Source: Catenuloplanes atrovinosus
Lineage (GTDB): Bacteria; Actinomycetota; Actinomycetes; Mycobacteriales; Micromonosporaceae
Assembly (NCBI RefSeq): GCF_031458235.1
Contig: NZ_JAVDYB010000001.1
Span: 5,628,001-5,692,000, forward strand
Reading direction: 5' to 3'
DNA length: 64,000 bases
Positions 55,894 to 64,000 of the stretch are shown piece by piece. The notes under the pieces were generated by a model. The model saw only the letters and a list, made by a program, of their open reading frames with translations. It was not told the origin of the DNA and searched no databases. The translations under genes were made by a program, and so were the position numbers. Numbering within the stretch: the stretch's first letter is position 1; each line of letters opens with the position of its first letter.

Positions 55894-56181
55894 GTGATCA
55901 CCGCGATCGTCCTCATCGACTGTGCCACCGACTCCATCCCGGAGGTGGCGGAGAAACTGGCCGCACTCCCCGGCGTCAGCGAGGTCTACTCCACCGCCGG
56001 CCACGTCGACCTGATCGCGATCATCCGCGTCCGGCAGTTCGAGCAGATCGCCGAGGTCATCGCGGGCGGCATCTCCAAGGTCCCCGGCGTGATCAACACG
56101 GAGTCGCACATCGCGTTCCGCGCCTACTCCCAGCACGACCTGGAGGAGGCGTTCGCGATCGGCCTGCCGGAGACGGACTGA
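55894..56181 (+). CDS. Stand-alone Lrp/AsnC ligand-binding (RAM) domain protein
   Basis: 95 aa. The whole protein is one RAM domain: ITAIVLIDCATDSIPEVAEKL, SEVYSTAGHVDLIAIIRV, ISKVPGVINTESHIAFRAYS. No DNA-binding helix-turn-helix is present. Such proteins form oligomers that bind amino acids and may modulate full-length Lrp proteins. GTG 55894 has AAGGGAG upstream. The next gene starts 1 bp after its stop. Confidence 0.88.
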   Translation: MITAIVLIDCATDSIPEVAEKLAALPGVSEVYSTAGHVDLIAIIRVRQFEQIAEVIAGGISKVPGVINTESHIAFRAYSQHDLEEAFAIGLPETD

Positions 56182-56182
56182 C

Positions 56183-56995
56183 TTGCTGATCCTCGACCGC
56201 AGCGCCGACCGCATCGCCGTGCGGGTGTATCCATCCCCGTCACCCACCGCCCCCGCCGTGGTGATCCTGCCCGCCATGGGCGTACCGGCCGCTTACTACC
56301 GCCGGTTCGCCGAGGCGCTGCACGACGCCGGCCTCCTGGTCGCCGTCGCCGACCTGCGCGGCACCGGAGCCAGCACCCCACCCACCTCCGCCGGCTCCGC
56401 ACACGGCTACGCCGAGCTGGTCGACGACGTCGCCGCGGTCCTCCACGCCCTCGCACCCCAGCTCACCGGCCGCCGCCGAATCCTGCTCGGACACTCACTC
56501 GGCGGCCAGCTCGCCGTACTCCACCTGGCACTGCGCCCGGACACCGCCGTGGACGCACTCGTCCTGGTCGCCGCCGGCCTCCCCCACTGGCGCAACTTCC
56601 GCGGCACCCTCCGCCACGGCATCCGCCCCTTCGCCCACATCATGAACGCCACCGCCACCATCGCCCGCTTCTGGCCCGGCTGGGGCTTCGGCGGCCGCCA
56701 GCCCCGCCGCGTCATCCGCGACTGGTCCCACGTGGTCCGCACCGGCCATTTCCCACCGATCAACGGCACCACACCGGCGCTGGAGTCCATCACCCGGCCG
56801 GTGCTAGCGGTCTCCGTCGACGGCGACACCCTCATGCCACCACCCACGGTCGACGACCTCTGTGGTCGCCTGACCTCCGCCCCGGTGACCCGCCTCCACT
56901 ACGACCCCAGCACCTCCGGCGCGCCGATGAACCACTTCACCTGGGTCAAGGCCGCGGCGCCACTGGCCGCCCGGGTGGCATCCTTCGCCGCGTGA
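56183..56995 (+). CDS. Alpha/beta-hydrolase fold protein
   Basis: 270 aa. Oxyanion-type VVILPAMGVPAAYY, nucleophile elbow LLGHSLGGQLAV (Ser intact), acid near VSVDGDTLMPP, and His in APMNHFTWV. The order is that of serine esterases/lipases. A TTG start at 56183, 1 bp after the RAM gene stop, implies co-translation. Substrate unknown. It is the last gene before the lower-GC region that precedes the protease/STAND system. Confidence 0.85.
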   Translation: MLILDRSADRIAVRVYPSPSPTAPAVVILPAMGVPAAYYRRFAEALHDAGLLVAVADLRGTGASTPPTSAGSAHGYAELVDDVAAVLHALAPQLTGRRRILLGHSLGGQLAVLHLALRPDTAVDALVLVAAGLPHWRNFRGTLRHGIRPFAHIMNATATIARFWPGWGFGGRQPRRVIRDWSHVVRTGHFPPINGTTPALESITRPVLAVSVDGDTLMPPPTVDDLCGRLTSAPVTRLHYDPSTSGAPMNHFTWVKAAAPLAARVASFAA

Positions 56996-57300
56996 CGCCC
57001 GCGGATGGCCACACGCGCCGGCGTACGGCTTGACGTACACAGCCGCTATCGACATCTGTGAACTCGACCGCGGGCTCGCAGCCGAGTCGGCTCAGCAACG
57101 GTCGACTACAGCCGCGTCGGATCTGCCGAATTGCGGATGTCTGATCTTTCCGTCGTAGGTCGTTGTTGATCGCCGATTGGTCCAAGTGGATATTGCGGTT
57201 GGATCGGTGCTGGCGGAATGCGGGGGCCGTTCGGTGGGCGCGGTTGGCTGGATGTGTGGTGGCTGGTGTCTGGTTTGCGGCTGTTTGCTGGTAGCGGATT
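56996..57300 (+). other. Lower-GC spacer before the protease-STAND system
   Basis: About 300 bp without a credible gene. It is visibly less GC-rich than its surroundings (for example GGATATTGCGGTTGGATCGG and GTCGTAGGTCGTTGTTGATC), which suggests acquired DNA at the left edge of the conflict locus. It probably holds the promoter, but I cannot fix boxes. Confidence 0.45.
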
Positions 57301-57318
57301 GTGCCATGGTTCGGGGCT

Positions 57319-57642
57319 ATGGGTGATGGGGTGGCGGTCGCGGTTCCGGTGCGCTTCGGTGGGGTCGCGGTGCTGGCTGAGGCTATGCCGGTGTCGCGGC
57401 CGGCGGGGTCGGAGGAGACTTCGGTTGCGTCGCAGGTGATCGCCGCGTACGTGCGGGCCGAACAGACGGTGCTGGGTGTGGCGGGGACGGTCGTGCGGTT
57501 GGGGCGTGCGGTGGCGTCGCCGTCACAGGTGCAGGTGCAGTTCGGGGTGAGTGTGGCCGTGGAGGGCAGTGTGCTGGTCATGAAGGGCACGGCGGGTGCC
57601 ACGCTGGCGATCACGCTGACTTATGACGTCCCCGCCGCCTGA
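57319..57642 (+). CDS. Trypco1-like (CU044_2847-type) small protein
   Basis: 107 aa from ATG 57319 (GTG 57301 is an alternative). The C-terminal half, VQVQFGVSVAVEGSVLVMKG followed by LAITLTYDV, matches the pattern I know for the trypsin-co-occurring domain 1 proteins: an EVEFG-like strand, a small-residue helix and a KVTLTW-like strand. Such proteins are encoded beside trypsin-like peptidases in STAND-type conflict systems. It overlaps the next gene by 20 bp, so the two are translated together. It may regulate or be cleaved by the protease (inference). Confidence 0.7.
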   Translation: MGDGVAVAVPVRFGGVAVLAEAMPVSRPAGSEETSVASQVIAAYVRAEQTVLGVAGTVVRLGRAVASPSQVQVQFGVSVAVEGSVLVMKGTAGATLAITLTYDVPAA

Positions 57643-60600
57643 TATTCCGGGGTTCCTGGGCCGTGTCGTCGACGCCGGCGGTACGGCGGTGGGGACCTGT
57701 TTCCAGGTGTCTGCGGGTGTGCTGGCGACGGCGTGGCACGTGGTCAGGGACCTGGGTTCGGATGCGCCGGGTGCGCGGGTGTTGGTGGGGCAGTTGGCCG
57801 GCGGTGAGGTGTGGCCGGCGGTGGTACACGCGGTGGATTCGATGCGTGACCTGGCGGTGCTACGCGCCGACCGCCCGTTGGCCGCCTCGGTGCCCGGGCT
57901 CGTCGCGGTGGCTGCGGTGAAGCCGGCGGAGATGATGGCCGTGCAGGGCGTGTCCGAGTTCGAGAACGACAGGCCGTTCGCGGTGTCGGCGACGACCGGC
58001 GTGTGGCAGGGCTCGGCGCTGCGCGAAGACGGTGTGGCCGTCGGGCAGATGGATGCGGCCGGCCTGGTGCTGGGGATGTCGGGTGGTCCGGTCCGCCGGA
58101 TCAGTGACGGCATGGTCGCCGGTGTGGTCTCGGCACGCTACATCCCGGCGGCGGGTTCAAGCCGGTTGCGCGACGCGGTGTGGGTGGCTCGGGCGGATGA
58201 CCTGCGGGTGTTGCTCGCCGATGTGGCCGACGTCCGTCTGCGGCAGGCTCCCGCCGGTGAGCTTGTCGAGGTCACCGTGACGGTCAGCGACACGGAGGTG
58301 TCGGTGGTCGGTGGTGGCCGGTCGGAGTCCCGGGCGCACGACGGTGTGCCGGTGGCGTTGAAGATGGCGTGGGAGGCGCTGACCCGCGCTCGTGCGGGAC
58401 TCGGCGGTCAGCGGCATGTCGCTGCGGACACCGGTATCGCGGGGCCGGTGCAGGCGGCGACCGCGGAGGTGGGCCGGCTCTTGACCGAGGCGTTCTTCGC
58501 TGAAGGCCCCGGCAGGCTGCTGGCGAGGATTCTGGAGGATGCGCGGTCGGCCCACCGGCCGGTCCTGATCGGGTTGCGGGTGCCGGGCCCGCTGGCGGCG
58601 CTGCCGTGGGAGACCGTCCGGCCGTCCGGCTCGGAGCGGCCGCTGGCGTTGGACCCGCTGGTGCGGGTCTTCCGCCAGGTGGACGCTGCCGGTTCGCCGC
58701 CGTCGTTGCCCGGCCCGCTACGGATCCTGGTGGCGATCGCGTCGCCGCTGGCGGGCGGGGGTCAGGTGCTCGGCTATGAGCGGGAGCTGCGGAATGTGCT
58801 GACCGCGGTCCGCGCCGCGCGTGCCGATGCCGCTGATGTGCGGGTGGTGCCGTTCGCCACGACCGCGGAGATCCGGGCCGCGCTGGAGCGGTATCCGGCG
58901 CACGTGCTGCACCTGTCCGGCCACGGCGGGCCCGGCCGGCTGGAACTTGAGGACGCGGAGGGAAACGCCCGCTCTGTGACCGCCGCCGAGTTGATCGACG
59001 AGGCGGTGCCGGCCGGCCGGATGCCCGTGGTGTTCGGCCTGGCCGCCTGTCACACCGGACGGGAATCGGCCGCCGGGGACCCGTCGTTCGCGGCCGGGCT
59101 GATCGCCCGCGGTGCCGGTGTCGTGATCGGGACCGAGACCTCGATCTCCGACGGGTACGCCACGACGCTGTTCGCCCGCATCTACGGGCGCCTCGCCGCG
59201 TCCAGCGCCGCCGGCCAGGCGGCTGACGTGGTCACCGCGGTCGCCGAGGCCCGCATCGAGGTCCAGCAGACCCTGACCGGCTCCGGCGACGTGCGCCGGC
59301 AGACCCTCGCCGGGTTGCAGGAGTGGGCGACGGTCTCGGTCACCGCCCCCGCCGGGACGGTGCCGTTGATCGACACCGGCCGGCCCCCTGAGCCGCTGCC
59401 CCCTGTGGAGCGTGCCGGCGTGTTGCGGCGGGAGGTCGGCGAGGTCGTCGGCCGCCGCCGGGAGCAGCGCCTGTGGCCCGCCGAACTCCTCCAGGATGCA
59501 CGGGCCGGGCTCGTGATCCACGGGCTGGGTGGGGTCGGGAAGACCACGCTCGCGGACGAGTTGGTCGCCCGGGTGCGGGAGCGGGAGCCGGAACGGATTC
59601 CGGTGGTCGTGACCGGGCAGATCAGCGGCGAAAGCCTGCTCGCGTCCCTCACCACCCCCCTCGCTGAAGCGCTGCGCGGTACCCCGGCGACTCATCCGGT
59701 CTGGACGGTGCTCGCGCGGGTCGCCGCCACCGAGCAGCCTTTGGCGGTACGGATGACCGCGCTGCTGGAAGCGCTGCTGCCGGCCGTGCCGGTGCTGCTC
59801 GTGCTGGACAACTTCGAGGACAACCTCGACGGCACCGGGCAGCGGCCGGTGCACGACCCGTCCTTGGCCGCCGTGCTGTCTGCCATCGCGACCCAGCCTG
59901 GCCGGTGCCGGATGCTGATCACCAGCCGGTACCGATTCACCCTGCCCGGCCGCGCGCACCGGCTGCTGGCCTTCCACCAGTTGGGGCCGCTATCGCTGGC
60001 CGAGACCCTCAAACTCGTCTGGGTGCTCCCGGCCCTCGACCGGCTCGCCCCGGCCGACATCGAGCAGGTCTGGCGTGCCGTCGGCGGCCACCCCCGCTGT
60101 CTGGAATACCTGGACGCGCTCCTGGCCAAAGGCACCGCCCGCTACACCGACGTCACCACCCGCCTGCTGGCCGGCGTCGAAACCCGGCTGCGCACCGCCG
60201 GGACCGCCGACGACGCGGACGTCACCGATGAGGCGATCGACGACTACCTGTCGGCCCACAGCACCCTCGACACCGCCCTCGCCGAGGCCGCCACCCTGGC
60301 CGCCGACGACATCCTCCTCGACCAACTCCTCACCGCCCTCGCCGACACCCCCGACGCGGCCCGGCTACTGCTCGGCGCCTCCGTCTACCGCCACCCCGTC
60401 GGCCACGCCGCGCTCGCCTTCCAACTCGGCCGGCCGGACCCCACCATCGAGCCCGCCGCCCACATTCCCGGTATCGACCAGCAGATCAGCGAGCTACTCA
60501 CCTCAGCTGGTGTTGACCTCACCCAGCCGCTGGATGTCGACGGCCTGTCCGCCATGGTGCGCATGGGTCTCGACCAGCTGCTGGACCAACGGTTGCCCGT

Positions 60601-62716
60601 ACCGCCCGTCCGAGTCGAGGCCGACCTCGGCACGCTGCTGCGCCGGTGCGCCGACGCCAGCCTCATCACCGTCATCGACCCCCGCAAAGCTGGTGGCGGC
60701 CCGCACGTGTTCGTCCACAGGTGGACCGCCACCGAACTCACCCGCCGTGCCATCGGCGACCACCGCCAAAAAGACCTGGCCACCGCACACCGCAACGCCG
60801 CCGCCTACTGGCAATGGTGCGTCGACCACTGGCCCCAACCACCCGCCGCCGACGCCGACGACCTCCGCGAAGCCCACCACCACCTCCACATCGCCAACAC
60901 CCTCACCACAGCACCCGACCACGACACCATCGCCACCACCGCTCAACGTCTCCAGTACCTCCTCGGCCAGCTCGGGCAACGCCACGAAGCCGCCACATAC
61001 GCCCACGAACACCTCACCCACCGCCGCCACCTCCACACCCTCCAACCCACACCACAACGAACAGCCGACCTCGCCGGCGCCCTCAACGACCTCGGCATCC
61101 GGCTGTCGGCGCTGGGGCGGCGGGAGGAGGCGCTGGCCGCCACGGAAGAGGCGGTCGAGGTGAATCGGCGGCTGGCCGCCGCGAACCCGGCCGCGTTCGA
61201 GCCCGACCTCGCCGCGTCGCTGAACAACCTCGGCGCCGATCTGTCGGGGCTGGGGCGGCGGGAGGAGGCGCTGGCCGCCACGGAAGAGGCGGTCGAGGTG
61301 CGGCGGCGGCTGGCCGCGGCGAACCCGGCCGCGTTCGAGCCCGACCTCGCCGCGTCGCTGAACAACCTCGGCGCCGATCTGTCGGGGCTGGGGCGGCGGG
61401 AGGAGGCGCTGGCCGCCACGGAAGAGGCGGTCGAGGTGCGGCGGCGGCTGGCCGCGGCGAACCCGGCCGCGTTCGAGCCCGACCTCGCCGGGTCGCTGAA
61501 CAATCTCGGCATCCGGCTGTCGGGGCTGGGGCGGCGGGAGGAGGCGCTGGCCGCCACGGAAGAGGCGGTCGAGGTGTATCGGCGGCTGGCCGCCGCGAAC
61601 CCGGCCGCGTTCGAGCCCGACCTCGCCGGGTCGCTGACCAACCTCGGCATCCGGCTGTCGGGGCTGGGGCGGCGGGAGGAGGCGCTGGCCGCCACGGACG
61701 AGGCGGTCGAGGTGCGGCGGCGGCTGGCCGCGGCGAACCCGGCCGCGTTCGAGCCCGACCTCGCCGCGTCGCTGAACAACCTCGGCGCGATGCTGTCGGA
61801 GCTGGGGCGGCGGGAGGAGGCGCTGGCCGCCACGGAAGAGGCGGTCGAGGTGCGGCGGCGGCTGGCCGCGGCGAACCCGGCCGCGTTCGAGCCCGACCTC
61901 GCCAGGTCGCTGACCAACCTCGGCGCGATGCTGTCGGCGCTGGGGCGGCGGGAGGAGGCGCTGGCCGCCACGGAAGAGGCGGTCGAGGTGTATCGGCGGC
62001 TGGCCGCCGCGAACCCGGCCGCGTTCGAGCCCCATCTCGCCGCGTCGCTGAACAACCTCGGCGCGATGCTGTCGGAGCTGGGGCGGCGGGAGGAGGCGCT
62101 GGCCGCCACGGAAGAGGCGGTCGAGGTGCGGCGGCGGCTGGCCGCGGCGAACCCGGCCGCGTTCGAGCCCCATCTCGCCGGGTCGCTGACCAACCTCGGC
62201 GCCGATCTGTCGGCGCTGGGGCGGCGGGAGGAGGCGCTGGCCGCCACGGAAGAGGCGGTCGAGGTGTATCGGCGGCTGGCCGCGGCGAACCCGGCCGCGT
62301 TCGAGCCCGACCTCGCCAGGTCGCTGAACAACCTCGGCAATGGGCTGTCGGCGCTGGGGCGGCGGGAGGAAGCGCTGGCCGCCACGGAAGAGGCGGTCGA
62401 GGTGTATCGGCGCCTGGCCGCGGCGAACCCGGCCGCGTTCGAGCCCAACCTCGCCAGGTCGCTGTGGGCGTTCGCGTGGGTATGTGTGAAATCGAAAGCC
62501 AATTGGATAGAAGCCAGGGAGTTGGTCACCGAGGCCATCAACCTCTACGAGCGGCTGATACAACGATTCCCGCAAACGTTCGCCGGAGAGCTGCTATCCG
62601 CATACCGGACGCTGGCGGACGTGCTGGACGGCCTCGGCCAGGCAGACGAGGCTGCCGACTTGCGCCGTCAGCTCAACAAGGCAGCCGGCGGAAGCAGCCC
62701 GGACCGAACTGACTGA
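57623..62716 (+). CDS. Trypsin-CHAT-NB-ARC-TPR protein (NLR-like conflict system effector)
   Basis: 1697 aa. Trypsin-like protease (about 1-205): TAWHVV (His39), SMRDLAVL (Asp76), GMSGGPV (Ser153), triad complete. CHAT caspase-like protease (about 280-580): LHLSGHGG (His434) and GLAACHTG (Cys476), dyad complete. NB-ARC/STAND NTPase (about 600-950): GLGGVGKTT (634-642), VLLVLDNFEDN, LITSRYRF. A winged-helix-like and helical part follows, then ten near-identical 46-residue TPRs (about 1155-1615) and a diverged C-terminal TPR. Expected model: ligand sensing by TPRs, NTP-driven oligomerisation, protease activation, and cell-suicide or cleavage output. Antiphage function is inference. ATG 57623 overlaps the Trypco1 gene. 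Confidence 0.9.
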   Translation: MTSPPPDIPGFLGRVVDAGGTAVGTCFQVSAGVLATAWHVVRDLGSDAPGARVLVGQLAGGEVWPAVVHAVDSMRDLAVLRADRPLAASVPGLVAVAAVKPAEMMAVQGVSEFENDRPFAVSATTGVWQGSALREDGVAVGQMDAAGLVLGMSGGPVRRISDGMVAGVVSARYIPAAGSSRLRDAVWVARADDLRVLLADVADVRLRQAPAGELVEVTVTVSDTEVSVVGGGRSESRAHDGVPVALKMAWEALTRARAGLGGQRHVAADTGIAGPVQAATAEVGRLLTEAFFAEGPGRLLARILEDARSAHRPVLIGLRVPGPLAALPWETVRPSGSERPLALDPLVRVFRQVDAAGSPPSLPGPLRILVAIASPLAGGGQVLGYERELRNVLTAVRAARADAADVRVVPFATTAEIRAALERYPAHVLHLSGHGGPGRLELEDAEGNARSVTAAELIDEAVPAGRMPVVFGLAACHTGRESAAGDPSFAAGLIARGAGVVIGTETSISDGYATTLFARIYGRLAASSAAGQAADVVTAVAEARIEVQQTLTGSGDVRRQTLAGLQEWATVSVTAPAGTVPLIDTGRPPEPLPPVERAGVLRREVGEVVGRRREQRLWPAELLQDARAGLVIHGLGGVGKTTLADELVARVREREPERIPVVVTGQISGESLLASLTTPLAEALRGTPATHPVWTVLARVAATEQPLAVRMTALLEALLPAVPVLLVLDNFEDNLDGTGQRPVHDPSLAAVLSAIATQPGRCRMLITSRYRFTLPGRAHRLLAFHQLGPLSLAETLKLVWVLPALDRLAPADIEQVWRAVGGHPRCLEYLDALLAKGTARYTDVTTRLLAGVETRLRTAGTADDADVTDEAIDDYLSAHSTLDTALAEAATLAADDILLDQLLTALADTPDAARLLLGASVYRHPVGHAALAFQLGRPDPTIEPAAHIPGIDQQISELLTSAGVDLTQPLDVDGLSAMVRMGLDQLLDQRLPVPPVRVEADLGTLLRRCADASLITVIDPRKAGGGPHVFVHRWTATELTRRAIGDHRQKDLATAHRNAAAYWQWCVDHWPQPPAADADDLREAHHHLHIANTLTTAPDHDTIATTAQRLQYLLGQLGQRHEAATYAHEHLTHRRHLHTLQPTPQRTADLAGALNDLGIRLSALGRREEALAATEEAVEVNRRLAAANPAAFEPDLAASLNNLGADLSGLGRREEALAATEEAVEVRRRLAAANPAAFEPDLAASLNNLGADLSGLGRREEALAATEEAVEVRRRLAAANPAAFEPDLAGSLNNLGIRLSGLGRREEALAATEEAVEVYRRLAAANPAAFEPDLAGSLTNLGIRLSGLGRREEALAATDEAVEVRRRLAAANPAAFEPDLAASLNNLGAMLSELGRREEALAATEEAVEVRRRLAAANPAAFEPDLARSLTNLGAMLSALGRREEALAATEEAVEVYRRLAAANPAAFEPHLAASLNNLGAMLSELGRREEALAATEEAVEVRRRLAAANPAAFEPHLAGSLTNLGADLSALGRREEALAATEEAVEVYRRLAAANPAAFEPDLARSLNNLGNGLSALGRREEALAATEEAVEVYRRLAAANPAAFEPNLARSLWAFAWVCVKSKANWIEARELVTEAINLYERLIQRFPQTFAGELLSAYRTLADVLDGLGQADEAADLRRQLNKAAGGSSPDRTD
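61085..62470 (+). repeat. Ten tandem 138-bp repeats encoding TPRs
   Basis: The motif TGGGGCGGCGGGAGGA recurs at exact 138-bp spacing from 61113 to 62355, ten times. Outside a few short blocks the copies are identical at the DNA level, including third codon positions, which indicates recent expansion or gene conversion. Confidence 0.95.
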
Positions 62717-63257: not shown

Positions 63258-64000
63258 TCAGTGACGCCCGCTACCGACTTCCTCGCGCTTCGCGGAGGGG
63301 TCGACCGGTGGGTGTCCCGGTGAGACGGGAGCCTCGACCGGCTTCTCGATCGGGAAGAAGAAGCCCTTGATCGCCGGGCCGAGGGCGCCGACGCGGTTCA
63401 TCTTCTTCGGTACGACCCAGCCGGTGTATTCGAGGTGGGTGTGGCCGTGCTCGTCGGGGGCGGCCAGGGGCTGGTGCACCTCGACGAAGCGGCCGTCGGG
63501 GAGGCGGCGGATGATGCCGGTCTCCACGCCGTGGGCCAGGACCTCGCGGTCGTGCTGCTGGAGGCCGAGGCAGATGCGGTAGGTGATCCAGTAGGCGATC
63601 GGCGGGACGATCAGCAGGCCGATGCGGCCGGCCCAGGTCATCGCGTTCAGGCTGATGTGGAACTTGTCCGCGACCACGTCGTTGCCGCCGGAGATGGTGG
63701 CGATGATGTAGAAGGAGACGGCCATCATGCCGAGCGCGGTGCGGTGCGGGTTGTCGCGCGGGCGCTCCAGCAGGTTGTGGATGCGCTTGTCGCCGGTGAG
63801 GCGCGCCTCGATCGCCGGGTACAGCATCGGGAGGACGATCAGCACGCCGAGCAGGACGCCGGCGGGCCAGAACATCGGCGGGATGACGTAGCCGTCGCCG
63901 ATCGGGAGGTAGATGTCCCAGTCGGGCATGAGGCGGACCAGGCCGTCCATGAACATGACGTACCAGTCGGGCTGGGAGGCCGAGGAGACCTCGGACGCCC
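63258..64000 (-). CDS. qcrB: Cytochrome bc1 complex cytochrome b subunit, C-terminal part (runs off right edge)
   Basis: The last 247 residues are visible. QPDWYVMFMDGLVRLMPDW is the conserved Qo-site-side loop and helix start of actinobacterial QcrB; hydrophobic helices follow (PPMFWPAGVLLGVLIVLPML, LGMMAVSFYIIATISGGND, WAGRIGLLIVPPIAYWITYR), then the long cytoplasmic tail typical of actinobacteria (LPDGRFVEVHQPLAAPDEHG...). The protein oxidises menaquinol in the bc1-aa3 supercomplex. Upstream qcrA and qcrC are expected beyond the window. A strong terminator follows. Confidence 0.95.
   Translation of the reverse strand, partial: ASEVSSASQPDWYVMFMDGLVRLMPDWDIYLPIGDGYVIPPMFWPAGVLLGVLIVLPMLYPAIEARLTGDKRIHNLLERPRDNPHRTALGMMAVSFYIIATISGGNDVVADKFHISLNAMTWAGRIGLLIVPPIAYWITYRICLGLQQHDREVLAHGVETGIIRRLPDGRFVEVHQPLAAPDEHGHTHLEYTGWVVPKKMNRVGALGPAIKGFFFPIEKPVEAPVSPGHPPVDPSAKREEVGSGRH

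Follow-up and report, generated by a model that had tools for sequence, protein, structure and literature searches.

In their description of VMAP systems, Kaur et al. (2020) defined Trypco1 and Trypco2 as neighbors of trypsin that exclude one another (PMC7159879). In other defense systems, a trypsin fused to an oligomerizing protein activates a partner encoded just upstream (PMC12799240), and the two trypsin-like proteases LypA and LypC act with an NLR-like protein, the catalytic serines of both being needed (PMC13236601). Fungal NLRs carry near-identical repeats that are under diversifying selection at predicted interaction positions (PMC4986451). Here we report a two-gene locus of Catenuloplanes atrovinosus, located in a window (the whole stretch of DNA analyzed) of 64,000 nt that spans positions 5,628,001-5,692,000 of the forward strand of NZ_JAVDYB010000001.1; all positions are in window numbering unless a locus or genome handle (L or G) is given. 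The locus encodes a small Trypco1 protein followed by a single polypeptide that joins a trypsin, a CHAT protease, a STAND NTPase and an array of TPR repeats. We give an even chance to the reading that it is an NLR-like conflict receptor with a diversifying sensor and an output delivered through an exchangeable slot. Our literature search, which covered few subscription journals and no supplements, returned no description of a trypsin-CHAT-STAND-TPR chain, and it found hypervariable near-identical NLR repeats described for fungi or for diversity-generating retroelements and none for bacterial NLR-like proteins.

The genome that carries the window (G000) consists of one contig of 8.9 Mb. The two genes and the parts of the large chain are the following.

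57301..57642, + strand: gene of Trypco1 (trypsin-co-occurring domain 1), a 113-codon open reading frame (ORF) with a GTG start (Pfam PF19493, NCBIfam NF041216)
57623..62716, + strand: trypsin-CHAT-STAND-TPR gene, a single ORF of 1697 aa with an ATG start
57692..58126, + strand: Trypsin_2 (HtrA-like) domain, residues 24-168, with H39, D76 and S153 (Pfam)
58235..58402, + strand: short segment, about residues 205-260, at the start of the CHAT chassis (alignment)
58583..59272, + strand: CHAT (caspase-fold) domain, about residues 321-550, with H434 and C476 (Pfam)
59435..60202, + strand: STAND NTPase, about residues 605-860 (AAA_16; motifs aligned in relatives)
61079..62458, + strand: TPR array of ten 46-aa (138-bp) units (repeat alignment)
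62459..62713, + strand: divergent TPR-like C-terminal end, residues 1613-1697 (sequence of the chain)

The upstream ORF, which has an alternative ATG start at 57319, overlaps the trypsin-CHAT-STAND-TPR gene by 20 bp and matches Trypco1 in both Pfam (PF19493, E 5.1e-11, 43.5 bits vs the cut-off of 24.6) and NCBIfam (NF041216, E 5.9e-10), and it adjoins a trypsin gene as expected of that family. At the N terminus of the large chain, the Trypsin_2 match (E 1.9e-10, 42.1 bits vs the cut-off of 27.6) contains a His-Asp-Ser triad, predicting an active S1 peptidase, and the closest solved structures by sequence are HtrA proteases. The segment at about residues 205-260 has a similar-looking counterpart, as judged by eye, ahead of CHAT in TIR-type relatives. 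CHAT itself was not among the 25 families shown by the whole-protein Pfam scan; with residues 201-592 scanned alone, it scored E 1.8e-12 (47.8 bits vs the cut-off of 24), and its best solved match is the SAVED-CHAT protein 8tl0 (E 3.1e-8). Together with the His-Cys dyad this predicts a second active peptidase. The P-loop region matches AAA_16 (39.1 bits vs the cut-off of 32.6) and carries Walker A GLGGVGKTT (634-642), Walker B LLVLDNF (725-731) and GGHPR, all of which are aligned in relatives. The match to NB-ARC (PF00931) stays below the curated cut-off of 23.5 bits, at 20.6 on the fragment and 18.3 on the whole protein, so we call the NTPase STAND, with NB-ARC identity only suggested. TPR_10 was detected in 10 stretches of the 1697-aa chain. 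A P-loop NTPase is thus placed between N-terminal domains and C-terminal repeats, in the effector-STAND-repeats layout of NLR-like receptors. A chance origin of the domain matches was ruled out by the profile E-values and by conservation across genomes.

A preliminary description of this DNA had proposed an intact trypsin triad (His39/Asp76/Ser153) and CHAT dyad (His434/Cys476) in one chain with an NB-ARC-type STAND NTPase and a TPR sensor, preceded by a Trypco1-like gene overlapping it by 20 bp. The five catalytic residues occur where stated and line up with their counterparts in relatives, and the TPR sensor, the overlap and the STAND NTPase hold as well; in the profile search trypsin, CHAT and Trypco1 came out above their cut-offs, TPR was matched, and NB-ARC fell below.

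Alignment with relatives indicates that the CHAT-STAND-TPR part is a constant chassis, whose N-terminal slot is filled by trypsin in one clade and by TIR or SEFIR in many of the relatives. In a CHAT-STAND tree of 19 rows, which omits L021 1-2136, the ten trypsin-type chains form one clade (100/100), and the window groups with L054, L053 and L056 (100/99). The chassis reference set comprised 37 loci whose match reaches the CHAT part, the trypsin-type loci having been set apart beforehand and L024 and other STAND-only matches excluded; chassis identity to the window's is 31-39% in 36 of them and 25% in one. Leaving out the duplicates L031 and L035 and one 28-residue fragment gives 34 non-trypsin chassis proteins, with a TIR_2 match in 22 and a SEFIR match in 12 (the counts may overlap), a Pfam trypsin match in 0/34, and an N terminus too short for a slot domain in six. 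The same trypsin also sits on other chassis, namely NB-ARC (L061), nSTAND1-WD40 (L066) and nSTAND3 (L069), and in chains without a recognized C-terminal domain (L065 and L068).

Several relatives show further peculiarities. Two CHAT-STAND genes lie side by side in L063 (1-9217) and three in L021 (1-10657), at least one adjoining CHAT-STAND gene in each locus having a TIR (Pfam) and some being in opposite orientation; paired receptors are possible there. In L054 (8169-11486) the translation is arginine-rich past STAND, with about four 138-bp repeats kept in the DNA, perhaps owing to a broken copy or an assembly error. A further protein with 46-aa TPR units is encoded elsewhere in the window's own genome (L105).

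Judged from gene neighborhoods, the Trypco gene goes with the trypsin and not with the chassis. Among 20 trypsin loci (18 places of the family search plus L061 and L019), Trypco1 stands above cut-off, directly upstream and on the same strand in 15, on several C-terminal chassis, and no Trypco1 adjoins the CHAT gene in the TIR/SEFIR-type genomes G163, G004 and G151. The chassis of L056 nests in the window's clade, but the gene upstream is Trypco2 (E 7e-24), separated by a 3-bp gap from a divergent trypsin that BLAST did not join to the window's and that is still Trypsin_2 by Pfam. The same chassis clade thus carries a different protease with a different partner, and the two seem to have been exchanged jointly. 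With ORFs taken from the first possible start, Trypco1 and trypsin overlap by 1-20 bp in 11 of 13 loci (the window and twelve others), the overlap in L053 and L059 not being judged as the frame runs far upstream.

In both L066 (5691-9947, Pfam-scanned) and L067 (4623-8879, which looks alike), Trypco1 overlaps a trypsin-nSTAND1-WD40 gene, its trypsin recognized by alignment, by 11 bp, the trypsin module being joined there to a different sensor. In L060, the trypsin-CHAT-STAND-TPR gene downstream of a truncated-looking Trypco1 remains open. The Trypco1 of L059 (7413-7784) also weakly matches Pfam 'Pepco' (E 0.0013, below cut-off), a hint that these two small families are related.

In one account of this arrangement Trypco1 itself is what the clustered trypsin cuts, a pro-effector comparable to the gated nucleases encoded ahead of Avs1a, HamA and LmuA, which are fused to proteases. 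The gene order shared with those systems, the overlapping genes and the presence of Trypco1 beside this trypsin in three quarters of the loci (15/20) would fit such a role, which has a precedent in PMC12799240, but Pfam shows no catalytic domain in Trypco1, and the family is termed an adaptor in PMC10907252; we consider this account unlikely.

Both proteases are well preserved. The trypsin triad is intact in 16/16 aligned chains, the window's included, and the CHAT dyad in 9/10 trypsin-type chains and 34/34 other chassis relatives (43/44, L021 2740-6108 being excluded from this total). In the three closest pairs (L059, L060, L055), the ratio of nonsynonymous to synonymous substitution rates (dN/dS) is 0.17-0.35 for trypsin, 0.13-0.20 for CHAT and 0.34-0.36 for STAND, and CHAT has the lowest value of the three domains in two of these pairs, which indicates that purifying selection acts on both proteases in these relatives, as distinct from the window's own gene. 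The exception to the dyad is the chain of L019 (7848-12428), on a contig of Nocardia tenerifensis, in which Tyr and Arg replace the catalytic His and Cys of CHAT and the trypsin triad is kept; no Trypco1 lies directly upstream of it, and one is found 2.2 kb downstream. The loss of this dyad is what could be expected if CHAT were merely structural and the trypsin the sole effector, yet dyad conservation in 43 of the 44 chassis relatives counted and the low dN/dS of CHAT in two of the three closest pairs make that very unlikely.

The preliminary description had gone further and taken the two proteases in series to suggest an internal cascade. In its obligatory form, STAND oligomerization would activate CHAT, which would cut the short linker before about residue 210 and free or mature the trypsin as executor, or the reverse. 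Both active sites are intact in 9/10 trypsin-type chains; moreover, it was proposed for EACC1 systems that constant caspases free the variable effector fused to them through autoproteolysis (PMC7159879), and pro-nucleases activated by caspases and by trypsin were shown in other defense systems (PMC12799240). Against this stand the trypsin triad retained in L019 beside a dead CHAT, which leaves a strict cascade unproven, and the equal constancy of CHAT where the slot holds TIR or SEFIR. An obligatory cascade is thus not established and appears doubtful to us, CHAT being the constant element and trypsin the swappable one.

The ten TPR units have a mean DNA identity of 0.92 (0.88-0.99) and a mean protein identity of 0.89 (0.83-0.98), the unit at residue 1613 being excluded from the repeat statistics. 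The threshold for highly internally conserved (HIC) repeats is units more than 85% identical over at least 100 aa (PMC4986451); judged without running that paper's program, the mean protein identity of the array lies above it, though single pairs fall below 0.85. Variation is concentrated at a few positions: 10 of the 46 unit columns vary, seven of them recurrently, and the codons at these hot positions often differ by 2-3 bases at once (e.g. CGG, TAT, AAT). The proportions of nonsynonymous (pN) and synonymous (pS) differences are 0.44 and 0.27 in the seven hot codons and 0.007 and 0.041 in the others. In TPR numbering, the hot positions are 2, 5, 9, 10, 13 and 31 plus one in an extra loop, four of which (2, 5, 9, 13) are shared with the seven most variable TPR positions reported by Magliery and Regan (2, 5, 9, 12, 13, 33, 34), located on the concave ligand face (PMC1261162).

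Because the hot columns had been picked post hoc in the window, the six core positions were tested on five other arrays (L056, L057, L059, L060, L063). Mean pN was higher inside the set than outside in 5/5, with permutation p of 0.0001-0.0045 (uncorrected) and no rotation of the set doing better, in arrays that are not fully independent because four of the five belong to a single 40-aa type and the fifth, L056, shares the type of the window. The two paralogues in the window's own genome (L059 and L060, about 45% identical to its chain) bear on repeat turnover. Synonymous divergence between their chassis is 0.37, and units within the L060 array differ by only 0.11; between the two arrays, units of equal rank are 0.24 apart vs 0.26 for units of any rank. 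Same-rank units being hardly closer than any others, unit turnover has followed the duplication of L059 and L060, although the within-array divergence of 0.28 in L059 implies that homogenization was not uniform. A diversity-generating retroelement was considered as the source of the variation and rejected: none was seen, as RVT_1 had no match in the complete own genome (the control was positive in 3/14 genomes), and the variable codons go beyond changes at A.

These observations make the locus a tentative candidate, at slightly less than an even chance, for a counterpart, in filamentous-type bacteria, of the fungal repeat-diversifying receptors. It would combine a constant CHAT-STAND chassis, an exchanged slot (TIR/SEFIR, trypsin with Trypco1, or trypsin with Trypco2) and near-identical TPR units that are continually homogenized while a few of their ligand-face codons diversify, without a diversity-generating retroelement. 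The same near-identical repeats, binding-face variation and repeat turnover parallel fungal NLRs (PMC4986451) and could speak for kin or self/non-self recognition instead of phage defense, with the array recognizing a variable cellular partner as in fungal incompatibility NLRs. However, a sensor of phage proteins would give the same pattern, and no feature seen in the locus suggests cell contact or fusion, which renders kin recognition quite unlikely.

The locus occupies a gap whose flanks and other gene are the following.

55894..56181, + strand: Lrp/AsnC ligand-binding-domain gene, the conserved left flank (Pfam AsnC_trans_reg, E 2e-16)
56183..56995, + strand: alpha/beta hydrolase gene that shares this variable gap and is not counted as a component of the system (Pfam Hydrolase_4, E 3e-20)
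63258..63998, - strand: C-terminal part of QcrB, the conserved right flank, cut by the window end (NCBIfam bc1_QcrB_actin, E 4.2e-69, partial)

In 4/4 congeners, the site is flanked by HD/RelA_SpoT, NUDIX, nucleotidyltransferase and Lrp/AsnC-type genes (Pfam) and by QcrB (NCBIfam). These flanking genes are 82-98% identical across the congeners (95-98% for the Lrp-type gene and 93-96% for QcrB), and the gap between the last two holds 0.7-3.4 kb of other sequence. No match to Trypco1 or trypsin-CHAT-STAND was found at E 1e-4 in any of 11 stretches, four from the congeners and seven from further members of the family. Residues 1-1126 had no match in three of the four congeners; the fourth gave one 34% match (query 281-1092), of TIR type and elsewhere in its genome. 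Since the gene is absent and the flanks are conserved in congeners, the locus is inserted at a variable spot of a core block, which makes the gene accessory. The preliminary description had likewise placed it in an otherwise conserved block behind DNA of lower GC content, as would fit acquisition; the intergenic region 56996-57300 indeed has a GC content of 0.626 vs 0.729 for the window, and the genome-neighborhood comparison did not find ubiquitous vertical presence at the site, the gene being absent there in 4/4 congeners.

In L079 and L082, homologues of the hydrolase at 56183..56995 lie close to the corresponding gap, and the four congener stretches have none. A TAP-like alpha/beta hydrolase (Pfam) lies in the Lrp-qcrB gap of three of the four congeners, the fourth showing nothing clear.

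L073 10472-12040: TAP-like hydrolase in a congener gap (Pfam)
L074 10687-12279: TAP-like hydrolase in a congener gap (Pfam)
L075 1732-3285 and 3363-4943: TAP-like hydrolases in a congener gap, two copies (Pfam)

Some match to residues 1-1126 occurs in 46/200 family genomes, and the trypsin-CHAT form in at least seven of them (G000, G146, G046, G126, G007, G023, G029). Class-wide, 17/296 genomes had a match, the trypsin-CHAT form being seen only in G000 and G007 again; with only 2-3 candidates scored per genome in these large searches, the counts are minimum numbers. Some STAND proteins of actinomycetes regulate transcription, and this one could be unrelated to conflict and control development or secondary metabolism, a role that some other actinomycete STAND-TPR proteins have. 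Its similarity to the NCBIfam FxSxx_TPR model would agree with such a role; the score of 147 bits is far below the cut-off of 300, and an FxSxx-type system was rejected on that ground. By contrast, no DNA-binding domain is found above the Pfam cut-off (HTH_63 only at E 0.27), and patchy presence (at least 7/200 family genomes), exchange of the N-terminal domain and sensor diversification are marks of conflict systems. We regard a regulatory role as highly improbable.

STAND proteins undergo nucleotide exchange and oligomerization upon ligand binding. Under the reading of the locus as an NLR-like conflict receptor, we infer a sequence of events in which the TPR array would bind its ligand by the concave face, as the location of the variable codons suggests, and binding would trigger nucleotide exchange and oligomerization of the STAND NTPase. 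Clustering would then activate the constant CHAT protease and expose or activate the trypsin-like domain in the swappable slot, which would be the exchangeable output; CHAT activation may precede the slot output. Trypco1, probably translationally coupled, would serve as the dedicated partner of the trypsin, whether adaptor, inhibitor or substrate, and the likely outcome would be local proteolysis, bringing the cell or the invader to a halt.

Several observations weigh against this reading. No known defense gene was seen between the conserved flanks, and the PADLOC matches are partial only (six models, E 3.7e-7 or worse). A mobile-element origin was tried by tblastn of residues 1-1126 at E 1e-5 and not supported, with no match in 72,556 plasmid and 50,697 phage records, collections that may omit records near the window's own genome. 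A role in phage defense is therefore suggested by analogy only. The CHAT-then-trypsin order finds no support in L019, where the CHAT dyad is lost and the triad kept. Trypco1 is not beside trypsin in 4/20 loci (L061, L019, G048, G160), and that of L060 in the own genome (7721-8104) looks C-terminally truncated (Pfam E 0.045). Selection is less clear in five more distant pairs, including the window's three, where dN/dS is 0.44-1.26 near saturation. As for the sensor, pS is raised at the hot codons too, the window's hot columns were chosen after looking, and the compared arrays are mutually related; the Magliery-Regan set alone reached p 0.022-0.053 in six arrays, with 1-3 of 34 rotations as good. 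On the whole, the architecture, active sites, Trypco1 overlap, accessory insertion and NLR-like layout of the preliminary description stand, and its cascade is one of several readings.

If the conflict-receptor reading is true, the family offers a natural experiment in NLR-like construction, with a chassis that is retained, an N-terminal domain that is exchanged and a partner that moves along with the trypsin. Follow-up seems most worthwhile for the variation pattern of the sensor and for the way protease and partner were exchanged together, and the question of what the array recognizes would be testable by single-repeat swaps.

Compared with known systems, the locus resembles VMAP/iSTAND ternary systems in having a trypsin N-terminal on the switch component, an adjoining Trypco1 or Trypco2, and effector displacement in a constant frame (PMC7159879), but here one chain also includes STAND-TPR, with CHAT placed between the trypsin and the STAND NTPase. 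Membership in those systems was rejected, their domains and neighbors not being found: the complete Pfam lists for residues 1-200, 201-592 and 577-1159 contain no VMAP or iSTAND domain, assuming that Pfam covers these families, and no MoxR AAA or vWA gene was found among the ORFs tested between the flanks, the rest of the window and the genome not being searched. TIR/SEFIR-CHAT-STAND proteins, several with TPR arrays and mostly from actinomycetes, share the CHAT-STAND chassis and differ in holding TIR or SEFIR in the slot, with no adjoining Trypco1 in the three genomes named above. The Avs1a, Hachiman and Lamassu nuclease-protease pairs and Canu likewise have an N-terminal trypsin on an oligomerizing defense enzyme and a partner gene upstream, but their partner is a nuclease of the metallo-beta-lactamase (MBL) fold instead of Trypco1, and CHAT is in the chain only here (PMC12799240). 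As to Avs (AVAST) and bNACHT, no Avs or NACHT model appears by name among the six partial PADLOC matches, and Pfam NACHT scored 19.9 bits, below the cut-off of 26.7. CARD-NLR and LypABC systems also have trypsin-like proteases acting with an NLR-like protein, encoded there by separate genes with a CARD adaptor (PMC13236601) and here in one chain, which has no Pfam match to CARD. SAVED-CHAT (PDB 8tl0) is a defense protein with a CHAT protease too, but it senses cyclic oligoadenylate (cOA) through SAVED, in place of which STAND-TPR is found here (PMC11417357). Fungal HIC-repeat NLRs differ from this bacterial locus, which has trypsin and CHAT domains, and they resemble it in near-identical TPR repeats, diversification at predicted interaction positions and turnover of units (PMC4986451). 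If the proposed reading is correct, bacteria would, like fungi, diversify repeat sensors by repeat turnover combined with selection on the binding positions.

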